A stretch of 64,000 nt of DNA, from assembly GCA_004299235.1 (NCBI GenBank), contig SCQL01000019.1, forward strand, positions 62,001 through 126,000, in the 5' to 3' direction. The translations under genes and the position numbers were made by a program. The first letter of the stretch is position 1. Each line of letters begins with the position of its first letter. Below are positions 5,891 through 11,973 of the stretch, piece after piece. The notes below the pieces were generated by a model. It was not told where the DNA came from. It searched no databases and saw only the letters and a list, made by a program, of their open reading frames with translations. The DNA is from a bacterium. GTDB taxonomy: Bacteria > Chloroflexota > Dormibacteria > Dormibacterales > Dormibacteraceae.

Positions 5891-6436
5891 ATGCTGCCGC
5901 CTCCCTTCGAGCCTCGCCTCCTCGAACTGCGCGACGGGACGAAAGTCCACGTGAGGCCGATCGCCCCCGATGATGAGTCGCGACTGCACGAGGCCATGGC
6001 GGCGATGTCCGAGCGATCCGTGTACTTCAGGTTCTTCTCGCCGCTCAAACGTCTGCCCGACGCGCTCGCGCACCGGCTCGCCGTGGTCGACTACAAGGAC
6101 CGGTTCGCGCTGGTCGCGACCACCCACAAGCCGGCCAGCAAGGACAGGGAGCGGATCCTGGGGGTGGCGCGCTACGACCGTGTGGCGGGGACCGAGGTGG
6201 CCGAAACGGCGGTGGCGGTGGTGGACGAGTTCCAGCGCCGCGGCCTGGGCGGTGCACTCATGGCCATCCTCGGCCGGGTTGCCCGGGAGCACGGGATCAA
6301 GACCTTCTCACTCATCGTCCTGCCCGAGAATCGCCAGATGCTCGGGCTGCTGCGGAAGATGGGTTGGATCCACCAGGCCAAGCTGGCCGGAGGCGTATAC
6401 GAGATCACCTTCGACCTCCCGGCAGAGAGCCGCTAG
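5891..6436 (+). CDS. GNAT family N-acetyltransferase
   Basis: A protein of about 181 residues with the GNAT acetyl-CoA fold: VAVVDEFQRRGLGGALM supplies the pyrophosphate-binding Q/RxxGxG/A loop, and the following helix-strand LIVLPENRQMLGLLRKMGW completes motif A/B. The N-terminus LRDGTKVHVRPIAPDDESRL and the YFRFFSPLKRL segment resemble the acetyltransferase domain fused to Pat-type protein lysine acetylases. The target is unknown. ATG 5891 is chosen because the sequence following it matches the family; an ATG nine codons upstream is also possible. The TAG stop lies inside a CTAG that abuts the IS481 transposase gene. Confidence 0.85.
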   Translation: MLPPPFEPRLLELRDGTKVHVRPIAPDDESRLHEAMAAMSERSVYFRFFSPLKRLPDALAHRLAVVDYKDRFALVATTHKPASKDRERILGVARYDRVAGTEVAETAVAVVDEFQRRGLGGALMAILGRVAREHGIKTFSLIVLPENRQMLGLLRKMGWIHQAKLAGGVYEITFDLPAESR

Positions 6437-7281
6437 TTGTACTTCCCAGGGACGTTGTTTACAAGCGCCTGCATCGGCGTCGTGCCTAGCTCGGTATGGA
6501 TCCGGTGGCGGACGTAGTAGTGGATCCAGTTGGGCAGAGCGTCCTTGCGCTCGGCGTTCGACCTGTAGAGCTGGGCGTAGGCCCACTCGCGAAGCGATGT
6601 TTTGATGAAGGCCTCGGCCTTTCCATTCGTCTGCGGATGGAAGGGCTTGGTCGGGCGATGCTTGGCGCCGATCTCGCCGAGGCTTGCCTTGAAGCGTTTG
6701 GAGAGCATGTAGGCGTATGCCCGGTCCGTCATGACGCGCTCGATGTGGACTCCCAAGCTCTCGAAATAGGAGGCAACATCGAGAAGGAACTCGGCTGCGG
6801 TAAGCCCGTCGTCATGGTCGAGGACCTGACCGAAGGCAACGCGAGAGCAATCGTCCACAGCGACGTGGTAGAACTCCCAGCCACCACCTCGTCGGATTCT
6901 TGCGCTGTTGCCCAAAATGGCGTGGCCACCGCCATCTGGTATACGGCCCAGCCTCTTGACGTCGAGGTGAACCAATTCGCCGGGGTTGTCTTTGACATAT
7001 CGGATCCGGACTCCGGTGACACGGTCGACGTCAGACAATCGCGACTCCCCGGCGCGTCTCAAAACGGCGTGGACGGTCGACGGGGCCATGTCCAGCATCA
7101 GCCCAATCTGATGAGGTCCCCAGCGCAGACGTCGTCGAAGATCGAGGATCGCTTCAGTCCGATCGCTAGAAGTTGTCCGCGCCTCTTTGATGCCGTCCCG
7201 ATACGTGGTAGCGGTCGATGGTGAGCTCGGCGAGGGGGAAGTTCGCACCTCGTCGACCCCCCGATTCAGGAGCTGGAGCAC
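6433..7281 (-). CDS. IS481 family transposase, N-terminally truncated
   Basis: Integrase-core (DDE) transposase of 282 residues. The catalytic triad regions are visible: HLDVKRL, the second Asp in VMTDRAYAY, and the Glu in NGKAEAFIKTSLREWAY. An HTH-like segment RWGPHQIGLMLDMAPSTVHAVLRRAG precedes the core, as in IS481 transposases. Family members are usually somewhat longer with another HTH at the front. Here the first roughly 30 residues are unlike the family and run into an ISL3 relic, so the 5' end looks lost. Its C-terminal codons overlap what appears to be the terminal repeat next to the GNAT stop codon. Confidence 0.85.
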   Translation of the reverse strand: MLQLLNRGVDEVRTSPSPSSPSTATTYRDGIKEARTTSSDRTEAILDLRRRLRWGPHQIGLMLDMAPSTVHAVLRRAGESRLSDVDRVTGVRIRYVKDNPGELVHLDVKRLGRIPDGGGHAILGNSARIRRGGGWEFYHVAVDDCSRVAFGQVLDHDDGLTAAEFLLDVASYFESLGVHIERVMTDRAYAYMLSKRFKASLGEIGAKHRPTKPFHPQTNGKAEAFIKTSLREWAYAQLYRSNAERKDALPNWIHYYVRHRIHTELGTTPMQALVNNVPGKYN

Positions 7282-7290
7282 GCGGCTGTC
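6433..7290 (-). mobile_element. IS481-type insertion sequence, one end only
   Basis: The transposase reading frame ends on a TAG shared with CTAG at 6433-6436. IS481 elements are known to insert at CTAG-type targets, and the bases just inside (TTGTACTTCCCAGGGACGTT from 6437) look like the element's terminal sequence overlapping the transposase C-terminus. No matching inverted copy was found to the right, where an ISL3 relic begins at about 7289. The element therefore seems to have lost its upstream end and is probably immobile. Confidence 0.6.
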
Positions 7291-7480
7291 AGAGATCGTC
7301 GCTGAAGTTGGTCACCTTGGCGGCATCTCCGCCGTGGGCTTCAAGGTCGGTTTTGAACTCGCCGATCACCTTCTTCTCCCGAGTCGGGTGGCGAACACGA
7401 CTTTGGCCCGGTCCAGGTCGACGAACACGCTGACGTAGTCGTGGCCACGGCGGTGGCTGGTCTCATCGACGTTCGTACGG
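7289..7480 (-). pseudogene. ISL3 family transposase relic, frameshifted
   Basis: On the minus strand the frame from about 7480 to 7366 reads TNVDETSHRRGHDYVSVFVD followed by LDRAKVVFATRLG and a stop. A second frame from 7372 to 7289 reads KVIGEFKTDLEAHGGDAAKV and ends shortly after. Together these match the catalytic-domain start of ISL3 transposases (xxDETSxxxGHDYVTxxVD...EFxxDLxxHGGD). A single frameshift near 7370 and loss of both flanks make it non-functional. It sits between the IS481 and IS21 pieces. Confidence 0.6.
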
Positions 7481-7518
7481 CGCAACGTACAAGGTCCGCA
7501 TCCTCAATGAATACGGCG

Positions 7519-8318
7519 AAGATCCTGGTCAAGGGCGTGGTCGAAAACCTGGTCGGCTATGCCCAGCGCGACTTGGTGGTTCCGGAAGGCAACTTCGGCG
7601 GCAACGTCGCCGAGGGCAACCGTCAGGCCAAGCTGTGGGGAATCGAGGTCAATGCCCGCCTCCATAGCGAGACCCAAGCCGTGCCGGCGATGCGCCTCGA
7701 GCAGGAGCGTCAACTGATGCGACCGCTGCCGTCCTTGCGACCGGCGCCGTGCCGAGGTGAGCTGCGCAAGGTGAACAAGACGCAGACGATTCGCTTCGGC
7801 TCGGCGCGCTACTCACTGCCGACGGAGTGGGTCGACAAGGTGGTCGAGGTCTCGGTCGTCGACCACCAAGTGGTGTTGGCCTATGACGGTCGCCAGATCG
7901 ACCGCCATCCGCTCAGGCTCCGGGCGAGGTCTCCATTAAGGACGAGCACTACAAGGGCAAGCCCAGAGTGCCGGCGCGGGCGATTCGTGTTCGCACCGGA
8001 ACCGAGCGTGCCTTCATCGCGCTCGGTCCTGCAGCCGAAGCCTTCCTCCGCTCAGCTGCAGCGACCGGCAGTTCGCGCCTGGCCGCTGAGCTAGCCGACA
8101 TCGTCACCCTGGAGCGAAGCTGGGGCCACGACCAGCTGCTGACAGCCCTGGAGCGGGCGACTCGCTTTCGCCGCTTCAAGGCCAAGGATGTGCGCGACAT
8201 CCTGGCCGCGGGCTGGCTCGCTCCCAACCCCGCACCGCCGGGCAAGACCTTGAAACTGAATTTGCCTGAAGTCCCGGTCCGACCTCTCAGTGCCTACGCC
8301 TTGGAGGAGGTTCGATGA
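7519..8318 (+). pseudogene. istA: IS21 transposase IstA, C-terminal half with frameshift
   Basis: The first frame reads KGVVENLVGYAQRDLVVPEG then a region ending RYSLPTEWVDKVVEVSV and AYDGRQIDRHPL, all recognisable as the middle and late part of IstA. Near 7912-7920 the frame must slip by one base. Continuation in the new frame reads APGEVSIKDEHYKGKPRVPA, then RAFIALGPAAEAFLR, and ends at 8318 with SAYALEEVR. The DDE catalytic half is missing at the 5' side. The end overlaps istB by ATGA as in intact IS21 elements. Confidence 0.75.
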
Positions 8319-9094
8319 CCGCTCCGGCGGCCGCTCTGGCGCCCGACTTGGTCGCCGGACTGCGTCGACTCAAGCTCGCTCGCGTCAGGGTCATCGCGCC
8401 CGAGGTCTGCCAGACCGCCAAGACTCAGCGCTGGGCACCAGACGAATTCCTGCGCACCCTCATCGAGGCCGAGCTTGCCGCCCGCGACGAGTCCAACCTG
8501 CGCGGCCGCGTCAAGCAGGCCGGCTTCCCGGTGGTCAAGAGCCTGGACGACTTCAAGGTCCAGGCCTCGTCGGTGCCGCAGGCAACCTTCAACTACATCG
8601 CCGGCCTGGAATGGATCCGCGCCAAGGATAACCTCTGTCTGGTCGGTCCCGCCGGCACCGGTAAGTCTCACCTTCTGGTTGGCGTCGGTCACGCCGCCGT
8701 GCAGACCGGGCTACGCGTTCGCTATTTCACCGCATCCGACCTCGTCGAGACGCTCTATCGCGGTCTGGCCGACAACTCGGTCGGTCGGGTCATCGACAAC
8801 CTGCTCCGCGTCGACCTGGTCATCCTCGACGAGCTAGGGTTCGCCCCTCTTGACCCAACCGGAAGTCAGCTCTTCTTCCGCTTCATCGCCGCCGCCTATG
8901 AGCGACGCAGCCTGGGCCTCGCCAGTCACTGGCCCTTCGACCAGTGGGGTCACTTCCTTCCCGACGAGACCACCGCCGTTTCAATGATTGATCGCATCCT
9001 CCACCACGCGGTCGTGGTCGTCACCGAGGGCGAGTCCTTCCGCATGAAAGAGGCCAAGACTAGAGGAGGTGAGCTGGCTAGAAAGAAGGCTTGA
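8315..9094 (+). CDS. istB: IS21 helper ATPase IstB
   Basis: A 259-residue AAA+ ATPase that assembles on target DNA and activates the IstA transposase. Walker A is GPAGTGKSH, Walker B LVILDELGF, followed by the sensor region SHWPFDQWGHFLPDE and IDRILHHAVVV, all standard for IstB. Its length matches the family. The ATG overlaps the istA stop. The gene is intact although its partner is broken, which argues for fairly recent decay of the element. One substitution is worth noting: the usual asparagine-rich sensor (TSNxxF) reads ASHWPF. Confidence 0.9.
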   Translation: MTAPAAALAPDLVAGLRRLKLARVRVIAPEVCQTAKTQRWAPDEFLRTLIEAELAARDESNLRGRVKQAGFPVVKSLDDFKVQASSVPQATFNYIAGLEWIRAKDNLCLVGPAGTGKSHLLVGVGHAAVQTGLRVRYFTASDLVETLYRGLADNSVGRVIDNLLRVDLVILDELGFAPLDPTGSQLFFRFIAAAYERRSLGLASHWPFDQWGHFLPDETTAVSMIDRILHHAVVVVTEGESFRMKEAKTRGGELARKKA

Positions 9095-9109: not shown

Positions 9110-9157
9110 GCGGACTTTCAGTTGGCCAAAACCGCGGACTTTGAGATGGCCATTGAC
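9110..9157. repeat. IS21 right-end repeats, type A (two copies)
   Basis: Two consecutive copies of about 23 bases beginning GCGGACTTT, at 9110-9132 and 9134-9157 (GCGGACTTTCAGTTGGCCAA and GCGGACTTTGAGATGGCCAT). They lie just after istB. IS21-family ends carry such multiple terminal repeats as transposase-binding sites. Confidence 0.55.
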
Positions 9158-9169
9158 AGAGCACCCGGC

Positions 9170-9211
9170 TGGTCAGTTTCAGCGATCGTAGGTGGTCAAT
9201 TTCGGCGATCG
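9170..9211. repeat. IS21 right-end repeats, type B (two copies)
   Basis: Two 19-base copies at 9170-9188 and 9193-9211 (TGGTCAGTTTCAGCGATCG and TGGTCAATTTCGGCGATCG), differing at two positions. The second marks the probable outer edge of the IS21 element, because recognisable xre coding sequence starts immediately to the right. Confidence 0.6.
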
Positions 9212-9433
9212 TCATCAGTTCTCCGTGGTCTGGCCGTCGCCCTGTCGGTAAGCGCCGACCTGCTCATCTTCGATAAAGAGGAACGCGGCCCCGACGACAC
9301 CCTTCGCCTACAGATCGAGGCCGCCGCCCGACTCAACCCCGAGGAGAAGAAGGCTCTCATGCTCATCTTCGAGGGCATCCTCCTCCAGCACCAGCACGCA
9401 GAAGCAGCCCTCCGCCTCACTCGCGTCAGCTGA
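9212..9433 (+). pseudogene. XRE-type regulator, C-terminal remnant
   Basis: The frame reads SSVLRGLAVALSVSADLLIF then DKEERGPDDTLRLQIEAAAR and KKALMLIFEGILLQHQ, ending at 9433. It resembles the end of the Cro/CI-type HTH (LxxLAxALxVSxDxL) followed by the short C-terminal helix region of small XRE regulators that carry a D/E-ERGPDD motif. The first HTH helices are missing; the open frame instead extends back into the IS21 terminal repeats (to an ATG inside the IS end). It is therefore a gene truncated by the IS21 right end, unlikely to bind DNA normally. Confidence 0.6.
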
Positions 9434-9605: not shown

Positions 9606-9992
9606 TCAGCCGACCCGTTCCGGCTGACCGGCGACTCGGGACATGAAGTCGGGGCTCTCACAGGTCAACACATATCGCCGCTCATCGGTGTCAGTCGCCG
9701 GCTGCGCCGACACATAGGCGACAGCTGCCTTGAGGGAGCGCGCCACATAGTCAGAGTCGGAGTCCGACGGCAAGCGTTTTGTGTCCCACGTCCCCCCAGC
9801 ACCCACGGGCAGCCACCTGCCGTCTTCGCGCTTGGTCCACACGTCGCCGCCGAGGATGGCATAGCCGTTGGCGGCAACTGCGGCTGCAACCTCTGGCACG
9901 TCGTTCTGCGTCCACCCGAGTTCACCAGTGAAGAACCGAGTGGCCCGCTCGAGAAGCGCTGCGTTCAAGAACCTGGAGATGTCCACGGTCAC
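9606..9992 (-). CDS. Probable immunity protein for the adjacent Rhs toxin (Imm40-like)
   Basis: A 128-residue acidic, soluble protein starting at a GTG whose GTGA overlaps the stop of the Rhs gene. This is the usual position of an immunity gene, and the coupling would ensure antitoxin synthesis. Visible segments are DISRFLNAALLERATRFFTG, then ANGYAILGGDVWTKREDGRW and YVARSLKAAVAYVSA. The AILGGDVxxxxxGRW core followed by a YVxRSxxxAxxYI helix resembles, from memory, the Imm40 group of polymorphic-toxin immunity proteins. The family name is tentative; the genetic position is the stronger evidence. The upstream part of the longer open frame is only antisense-like shadow within the Rhs gene. Confidence 0.6.
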   Translation of the reverse strand: MTVDISRFLNAALLERATRFFTGELGWTQNDVPEVAAAVAANGYAILGGDVWTKREDGRWLPVGAGGTWDTKRLPSDSDSDYVARSLKAAVAYVSAQPATDTDERRYVLTCESPDFMSRVAGQPERVG

Positions 9993-11905
9993 GTTCCCGG
10001 CGCGAAGAATCGGTGCGTGATCTCGCCCGCGCCATTGATGACCCACTGGTAGGTGCCAGAGCAGCCGTTGATGAAGCCGGGCAGATTGACGTACGTGTAG
10101 GCTTGGCCGTCGGCCCCGACTCCCGCAGTTGCATCGCTCTCGTTGACCATGCTGTCCATCAGGGTCGGAAACCCGTGGTAGTCGTCTTGGCTCATCTGAG
10201 CCAGCACTCTCGCGGTGTAGATCCCACCAAGCGGTCCATAGACCGCCGCGGCTTCGGAAGTCGCTGCTATTGCACCACTCACCGCTTCGATCCCGGCCGC
10301 CACGGCTGCGCCCCCGCCGGCGACGAAGATGACGCCGGCAATCGGCGCTGCGATCACGACCGACTCGGCCACTCCGAGCGCGACCAGCGCGGGATTGCTG
10401 CTGTGCAGGTTGTCGACCGCGTTGCCCACGAACGCGCCGACACCACCAACCACCGCCGCGGCCGCCTGGTTCCACCACGCGAGCCCCGCAGGATCTGTTC
10501 CGTTCAGCGGCGTATCGCCGGCGTAGGTATATGCCTGCCGCGTGATCCGCACCATCGGGTCACGAGACATGAACTGGCCCGTCCCCGGGTCGTAATACCT
10601 GGCCCTCAAGTAGTAAAGGTCGGACTCAGGATCGAGATACTGACCAGCAAATCGGAATGGATTGGTCAGTGCTCCCGTGCTGGCGACCAGGTTCCCATAC
10701 GGATCGAACGTGTAGGTGGCCTGGCCTGTTCCCGATGAGTCGGTCACTAGCCGCGTGGATCCGAGCTGGTCGTGGTGTAGATAGTAGGTTGCGCTGCCGC
10801 TGATCTGCTCGAGCGGCAGCCCGCCAGGTCCGTACACGTAGGCCGTGGTCCCGTCTTTGAGCAACAGCGGTAGGCCTGCGGCCATATCCCACACGAATTG
10901 TGTGGTAGCGGTGGCAGTTTTGGACATTCTCAATCCGTCGGCGTTGTAGCCGTAGCTTGTGGTGCTAGCCGCGGCGTATTTGGTCAGGCGGTTCGCCTGG
11001 TCGTAGGTCAAGGTCTGGGCTTGACCCGTAGCCGGGGTGACCGATGTGCGATTTCCCCGCGTGTCGTACTGGTAGGTGGTCGCGCCGGTCGGGGGAGTCG
11101 AGCAAGTACCCGACGTCGATGCCGTCCAGCACAGCTCGTCAGCATTGTTGAAGACCTGCTGGGTGCTGCCGGTCTGCGTGAGGTTGTCGGCAGCATCGTA
11201 TTTGTAGGTAATACTGCTCGGTGGGGGCGAGGAACAGGCGGTCAGGTTTGCGGCCCCGGCATAGCAGAGCTGATTGAGCGGTGTGTACTTGTAGGAGCCG
11301 GCCCCAGTCGAAGCCGAGCTGTCGCTGGTCAACTGGTTGGCGGCGTCGCGAGTGTAGTTGGCGGTGAAAAGGGGCACGAGCCCCTTGGTCACCTTGATCG
11401 CGCTCAGCCGATCGGCGTTATCGAAGGTGGAGGTGTCGACGACGCCGGATGCGGTCGGGAGAGTCTCAGTCGTCAGGTTGGAGTTGGCGTCGTAGCCAAA
11501 GCTCGTCTGGTTGCCGTTCCAGTCCTGGACCGAGGTCCAGCGACCGGCGGCGTCATAGCCTCGACTCACGTTTAGATTCCCCGGGTACGTGATCGTGGTC
11601 GGCAGGTTGCGCAGGTTGTAAGCCCATTGCACCTGGGCGCCGTTGCCGTTGGTGTAGCTGACCATCCGGTGGAGGCTGTCCAAGCTCCAGGCACTGGTGC
11701 CCGTACCGTCCGCCAGCCCGGTTCGCTGCCCGTCGAGGTCGTAGGTGATGCCGGAAACGTTGGGCGTGAGGCCGTCGCTGTAGTTGATCCCGATCAGCTG
11801 GTTGGCCGCGTCGTAGGCAAAGCTGGTACAGGCGACCCCGGGAGTGGCGCTGCAGTTCCCGCCGGGATCCTGCTTGGTGAGCCGATTGCCATTGCCGCAG
11901 GTGGG
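9989..11905 (-). pseudogene. Rhs/YD-repeat protein with C-terminal toxin tail, 5'-truncated (orphan Rhs)
   Basis: About 639 codons of Rhs shell: many YD repeats (for example GYDANSNLTTE, YKYDAADNLTQTGS, YQYDTRGNRTSV), then the Rhs-associated core with HHDQLGSTRLVTDSSG, DPYGN and YYLRARYYDPGTGQFMSRDP. The tail after NGTDPAGL is about 160 residues, with a hydrophobic Ala/Gly/Val-rich stretch and a C-terminal domain ending YTYVNLPGFINGC...WVINGAGEITHRFFAPGT, a probable toxin I cannot assign. The N-terminal shell, signal and start codon are absent: homology stops abruptly near 11905, and upstream lies the lysE 3' end in another frame. It could be a displaced Rhs C-terminal cassette kept as a recombination donor, or a dead fragment. 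Confidence 0.8.
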
Positions 11906-11973
11906 CCTAAAGATTCCCGCCCTGCGGCAGGCCGCTGACGCGCTCCAGTGGGCCCGAATTTCGGGAAGGACTG

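Follow-up and report, generated by a model that had tools for sequence, protein, structure and literature searches.

Ntox19 is a toxin family catalogued in 2012 and described by a signature of conserved residues (D, H, DxxxR, E, and HxxF); it is predicted to adopt a BECR fold and to act as an RNase through two histidines (Zhang et al. 2012, PMC3482391). Its members occur in MafB of Neisseria, in Rhs, and in further toxins, with N. meningitidis NMW_1482 as the type example, as well as in mimivirus, where the domain is fused to ankyrin repeats (Zhang et al. 2012, PMC3482391). Its listed partners are Imm38 (= DUF2247) and Imm40, the latter having a GGD, F, and W motif and Ntox19 given as its toxin (PMC3482391). 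Ntox19 and Imm40 have also each been reported for Rhs/T6SS effectors of Salmonella Agona (PMC12994826, PMC11669294). We found no experiments on any Ntox19 in the literature searched. Neither Pfam nor NCBIfam has a model that matches the family, and such tails are therefore left unnamed in annotation, which is how a known pair came to be overlooked here.

The window, i.e. the whole stretch of 64,000 nucleotides that was analyzed, carries a Rhs reading frame that runs into a small overlapping gene. With a family name now given to both genes, this locus is no longer a candidate 'new toxin-immunity pair'. We regard it, with high confidence, as the 3' end of a 5'-deleted rhs polymorphic-toxin gene that keeps its YD core, linker, Ntox19 tip, and coupled Imm40 gene. 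The gene order, the overlap, both family memberships, the conservation of the partner, and the truncation are all established directly. The components are listed below.

11897..11973, no strand: junction from the rhs remnant to the lysE stop (own-genome DNA search)
10709..11896, minus strand: YD-repeat region of the 5'-truncated rhs (PF05593, 11 stretches; 68-70% amino acid identity to the G017 Rhs)
10481..10708, minus strand: Rhs-associated core ending in DPAGL (TIGR03696)
10241..10480, minus strand: Ala/Gly-rich hydrophobic linker from the Rhs core to the toxin domain (translation)
9989..10240, minus strand: Ntox19 toxin domain, 83 aa (homologous-tail HMM, column census, AlphaFold model, giant-virus fold matches)
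9989..9992, minus strand: GTGA overlap of 4 nt between the toxin stop and the immunity start (sequence)
9606..9992, minus strand: Imm40-type immunity gene, 128 aa (sequence, Imm40-partner HMM, hhalign)

The truncated rhs gene and its surroundings

The Rhs reading frame lies on the minus strand and is free of stops from 12532 down to its own stop TGA at 9991-9989. Along it, YD repeats are followed by the Rhs core, NGTDPAGL (ending at 10481), the linker, and a tail that ends in FAPGT immediately before the stop. The frame matches both RHS_repeat (Pfam PF05593, 11 stretches, E 1.8e-24) and Rhs_assc_core (NCBIfam TIGR03696, residues 410-485, E 3.5e-20), and the two features expected of a Rhs polymorphic toxin, YD repeats and a Rhs-associated core ending in DPxG, are thus present. 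The first-pass annotation had described the YD repeats, the DPxG core, and the complete tail ending in FAPGT, and all of its statements about the sequence hold. Judged from its translation, the linker at 10241..10480 is a possible candidate for an entry segment.

Upstream, homology to the relatives begins abruptly at GNGNRL (~11896), about 80 bases from the lysE stop, and no N-terminal shell or secretion region was found. The only in-frame start codons upstream of the remnant lie within lysE, in another frame and without a ribosome-binding site, indicating that the front of the Rhs is truly missing, and the absence of a credible start together with the end of homology at ~11896 identifies the gene as an incomplete remnant. 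The loss of the front next to lysE had already been recognized, with the edge placed at 11905. A search for sigma-70-like promoters found none. A useful comparison is the Rhs of G017, a genome of the same class, which is 68-70% identical in amino acid sequence to the window Rhs from GNRL to DPAGL and extends further upstream with more YD repeats; the homology of relatives therefore continues beyond the ~11896 edge of the window copy. The G017 gene is itself frameshifted, and its tail after DPAGL differs from that of the window. Compared by sequence, the two genes appear as a conserved core with tip exchange after DPAGL. The locus had previously been described as a displaced cassette. That description has to be qualified: ~480 residues of YD-repeat core are retained, which is far above a typical orphan toxin cassette, and a 5'-deleted rhs gene is therefore the simpler reading.

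We considered whether the lysE junction (11897..11973) is the end of an insertion sequence and rejected this, since the genome has no second copy: an own-genome DNA search with the junction returned only itself and short chance matches. No second rhs of similar core occurs in the genome, apart from one distant fragment of 34% identity at a contig edge. On the other side of the locus, an IS21 istB and a C-terminal piece of istA occupy 7441-9094, 0.5 kb downstream of the rhs/immunity pair. Beside them, on the minus strand, is a gene with an IS481-like integrase core (6433-7281), such that 6433-9094 forms a cluster of insertion-sequence remnants adjoining the rhs fragment. Between this cluster and the pair, an open frame at 9122-9433 resembles the C-terminal portion of a regulator of the phage-repressor type and is apparently cut by the IS21 end; it has no Pfam match.

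Identity and predicted fold of the toxin tail

The tail has no match in Pfam, NCBIfam, or PADLOC, a direct PHROGs scan of the tail and its partner (run alongside the other three libraries) likewise gave nothing usable, and PDB sequence searches using single sequences and profiles of both proteins found no relatives. By tblastn, however, the last 71 residues of the tail matched a Neisseria gonorrhoeae MafB tail (33% identity, E 4e-6) and a Nocardia toxin tail (E 9e-9). Further relatives of the MafB tail came from a Leptospira plasmid, Duffyella, Deinococcus, and 16 loci of a species-genome collection. A 15-tail profile built without the window had the Rhs frame as its sole match among the 694 ORFs of the window (61.2 bits, E 3.3e-18). 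The score of the tail ranged from 60 to 67 bits across runs, and 2000 shuffles of the tail scored ≤8 bits against 67 bits for the real sequence.

In the homologous tails, the conserved residues occur in the order D, H, DxxxR, E, HxxF, which is the published Ntox19 signature. The similarity to Ntox19 (Zhang et al. 2012) further extends to the location at the C-terminus behind Rhs or MafB fronts, the Imm40/Imm38 partners, and giant-virus ankyrin proteins as fold relatives, with the window tail being 25-40% identical to the 14 other aligned tails. From its signature, partners, and viral relatives, we identify the window tail (the last ~80 residues) as Ntox19, a predicted RNA-cutting toxin. A column census of the alignment located the following residues in the window:

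10177-10175, minus strand: conserved H (H22)
10111-10097, minus strand: DGQAY replacing DxxxR
10048-10046, minus strand: Gln replacing the near-invariant Glu
10015-10004, minus strand: HRFF (H76-F79)

Six residues (H22, F24, G62, I74, R77, and F79) are invariant in the 15-tail alignment and all are kept in the window, as is H76, which is found in 14 of 15 tails. Both conserved histidines of Ntox19 are consequently present, the N-terminal H22 and that of the HxxF motif (H76-R-F-F79). Two signature positions are altered. Position 48, the Arg of DxxxR, is Tyr in the window and likewise in 4 of the 14 relatives, all four of which keep the Glu, whereas position 65 is Gln in the window and Glu in 13 of the 15 tails; one relative (L057) has Ser at the Glu position. 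As the Arg and Glu positions vary among profile-confirmed members, we treat them as signature residues and not as strict criteria. The change from Glu to Gln may weaken the toxin.

An AlphaFold2 model of the tail built from the 15-row alignment (pLDDT 91.6, pTM 0.81) consists of two helices followed by four antiparallel strands. Among predicted viral structures, its top matches were ankyrin proteins of Megavirus, Bodo saltans virus, and Edafosvirus (probability 1.00, TM 0.61-0.68 of the query, E 0.004-0.035), and these model-based matches agree with the published viral home of Ntox19. A scan of viral contigs with the tail alignment confirmed 0 of 12 pattern matches and phages yielded no match. 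Against the PDB, nothing was significant (best E 0.5) and the BECR-like MqsR/MqsA complex 3hi2 appeared only at E 1.2. The BECR assignment consequently stays a published prediction, with which the modeled tail is compatible. The RNase A-fold structure of MafB2 (PMC9970974) was also considered as a relative and rejected; its catalytic histidines (335, 402, and 409) are spaced differently and there was no PDB sequence match, and we therefore take MafB2 to have a different MafB tail. Within Chloroflexota, Ntox19 is rare, occurring in 2 of 400 genomes including the source genome.

The immunity partner and its conservation

The partner gene opens with the GTG at 9992, which overlaps the Rhs stop (GTGA), and ends at 9606. 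It encodes 128 aa with an AILGGDV core, as first annotated, and has an alternative in-frame GTG start at 9986. LGGD (residues 47-50) lies at the center of the protein and is followed by GTW (67-69, W69), and both the GGD and the W of Imm40 are accordingly present; the alignment does not clearly assign the F of the published motif to a residue. The resemblance to Imm40, already suspected from the sequence, was borne out by an Imm40-partner profile built without the window, which had the partner gene as its sole match among the 694 ORFs (36.7 bits, E 1.1e-10). Against Imm40-type homologs the partner scored 36.7-39.6 bits by HMM and 97.7% by hhalign (E 1.8e-12), while 2000 shuffles reached ≤6.2 bits versus 40 bits for the real sequence. 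The Pfam Imm40 model (PF15569) misses the window partner even at E 10, which reflects a detection threshold and not a biological feature: 9 of 13 aligned partners match the model, and 4, including that of the window, miss it at E 1. Therefore, the partner is filed as Imm40-type and not as a PF15569 match. In size, in its LGGD motif and subsequent W, in its place directly after a Ntox19 tail, and in its profile match it resembles Imm40 (PF15569), but it is only ~13-26% identical to the aligned members and falls below Pfam detection. On these sequence grounds, we assign it as an Imm40-type immunity protein.

The same pairing recurs among the relatives. The gene following the Neisseria MafB tail matches Pfam Imm40 (E 1.8e-4, just under the curated cut-off), that following the Leptospira plasmid tail is annotated 'Imm40 family immunity protein' (RefSeq 'imm40'), and most of the 16 species-genome loci have an LGGD-type Imm40 protein directly after the tail. 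Overall, Imm40-type partners follow tails in Neisseria, Leptospira, Citrobacter, Ignatzschineria, Bergeyella, Sphingobacterium, Dysgonomonas, and others. The Nocardia tail is instead followed by a gene matching DUF2247 (= Imm38, E 6.6e-16), and DUF2247 genes also stand directly after the Duffyella and Deinococcus tails. The Imm40-paired tails of the window, Neisseria, and Leptospira share Y[TS]..[KR]VL.Q....H.FP, whereas the Imm38-paired tails share LKPDP.H. In Citrobacter sp. (L048), a Rhs core, a Ntox19 tail, and an Imm40 gene directly downstream occur in an order identical to that of the window, and the Salmonella Agona effectors are likewise reported to combine a Rhs core and toxin tail with an Imm40 partner directly downstream. 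These are all long Rhs proteins, the Citrobacter open frame exceeding 1400 aa and the Salmonella ones being T6SS effectors, whereas the window gene lacks its front. With Imm38 and Imm40 as published partners of Ntox19 (PMC3482391) and the same order in Citrobacter, the suggestion of a new toxin-immunity combination no longer stands; as judged from sequence, the Ntox19-Imm40 pair is a known combination.

Among PDB structures, an AlphaFold model of the partner (pLDDT 89.4) came closest to ImmE5, the immunity protein of colicin E5 (2fhz_A; Foldseek probability 1.00, TM 0.51/0.60, E 0.014), well ahead of a next match at E 0.24 and probability 0.16. By hhalign, the Imm40 alignment matched the single ColE9-J ImmE5 with P 4e-4 in a plausible register, compared with 0.32 for the ColE9 immunity protein, but a six-sequence ImmE5 alignment ranked only 2 of 301 against column shuffles. 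The resemblance of the modeled partner to ImmE5 is thus a lead, being a fold match at E 0.014 only with weak sequence-profile support. A homology between the toxin tail and the colicin E5 RNase was tested as well and rejected, as the Ntox19 alignment gave no match. We entertain as a speculative and rather unlikely idea that Imm40 is a remote relative of ImmE5 and that Ntox19 toxins are tRNA-type RNases blocked by RNA mimicry like colicin E5, with the window copy, given its Gln and Tyr at motif positions, a variant using two histidines alone. If confirmed, the fold match would hint at the target cut by the Ntox19 family.

Competing readings of the locus and variant pairs elsewhere

In an intact relative, the tail would be enclosed by a shell of YD repeats, released at the Rhs core, and then delivered into a neighboring cell. 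There, Ntox19, with its helices, four-stranded antiparallel sheet, and histidines near the N-terminus and in HxxF, is predicted to cut RNA independently of metal. The producing cell and its kin would be protected by Imm40, the product of the overlapping gene, which would bind the toxin and inhibit it. For the fold class, the RNase activity, and Imm40 binding, we rely upon the published families. Secretion or delivery from the window copy is unlikely, which together with the change of Glu to Gln makes the locus best read as a remnant, probably one of recombination, with immunity as its remaining function if it still has one.

A related and doubtful reading takes the tail to be catalytically dead, from both the Glu to Gln and the Arg to Tyr changes, with the pair kept only as immunity against the Ntox19 of neighbors. 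It gains from the Gln found where 13 of 15 tails have Glu and from an Imm40-like gene that stands alone, without a Rhs tail, in a genome of the same class (L006), yet neither histidine is lost, the HxxF motif and the fold are intact, and the Tyr is common to four relatives that retain the Glu. It is less probable still that the locus functions as a stand-alone cassette, with translation beginning internally or coupled to lysE, that serves as a reservoir of tips recombining into another rhs. The frame does stay intact for ~640 codons, reaching into the overlapping immunity gene, and tails are exchanged after DPAGL between related genomes, but such a cassette lacks a credible start or promoter, carries the Glu to Gln change, and has in its own genome no other rhs of similar core as a recipient, apart from the 34% fragment at a contig edge. 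That the tail belongs to a new toxin family with an Imm40-like protein as its partner is highly improbable; its failure to match Pfam, NCBIfam, and PADLOC would fit, whereas the strong profile match to tails having both the Ntox19 signature and Ntox19 partners argues against it. We therefore retain the 5'-deleted rhs gene with its Ntox19-Imm40 end as the explanation of the locus.

Several variant arrangements were observed in other genomes. The stand-alone Imm40-like gene in L006 (1471-1908, genome G119) contains LGGDVW and, with no Rhs tail seen alongside, is possibly an orphan immunity gene by sequence. In a genome of the same phylum (G243, L005), a divergent Ntox19-like Rhs tail that keeps the Glu (1501-1722) is followed 8 bases on by a 180-aa protein (1731-2273) matching neither Imm40 nor any Pfam family, which makes it a candidate for a third kind of Ntox19 immunity protein. 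In a Rickettsiales MAG (L060:1506-2684), a Ntox19-like tail precedes a 221-aa protein without clear Imm40 character, and the gene after that encodes a leader-like N-terminus and again a Ntox19-like C-terminus. Lastly, Bergeyella zoohelcum (L053:4001-5329) carries two tandem Ntox19-Imm40 pairs of different subtypes, the second of which has Tyr at the DxxxR position.
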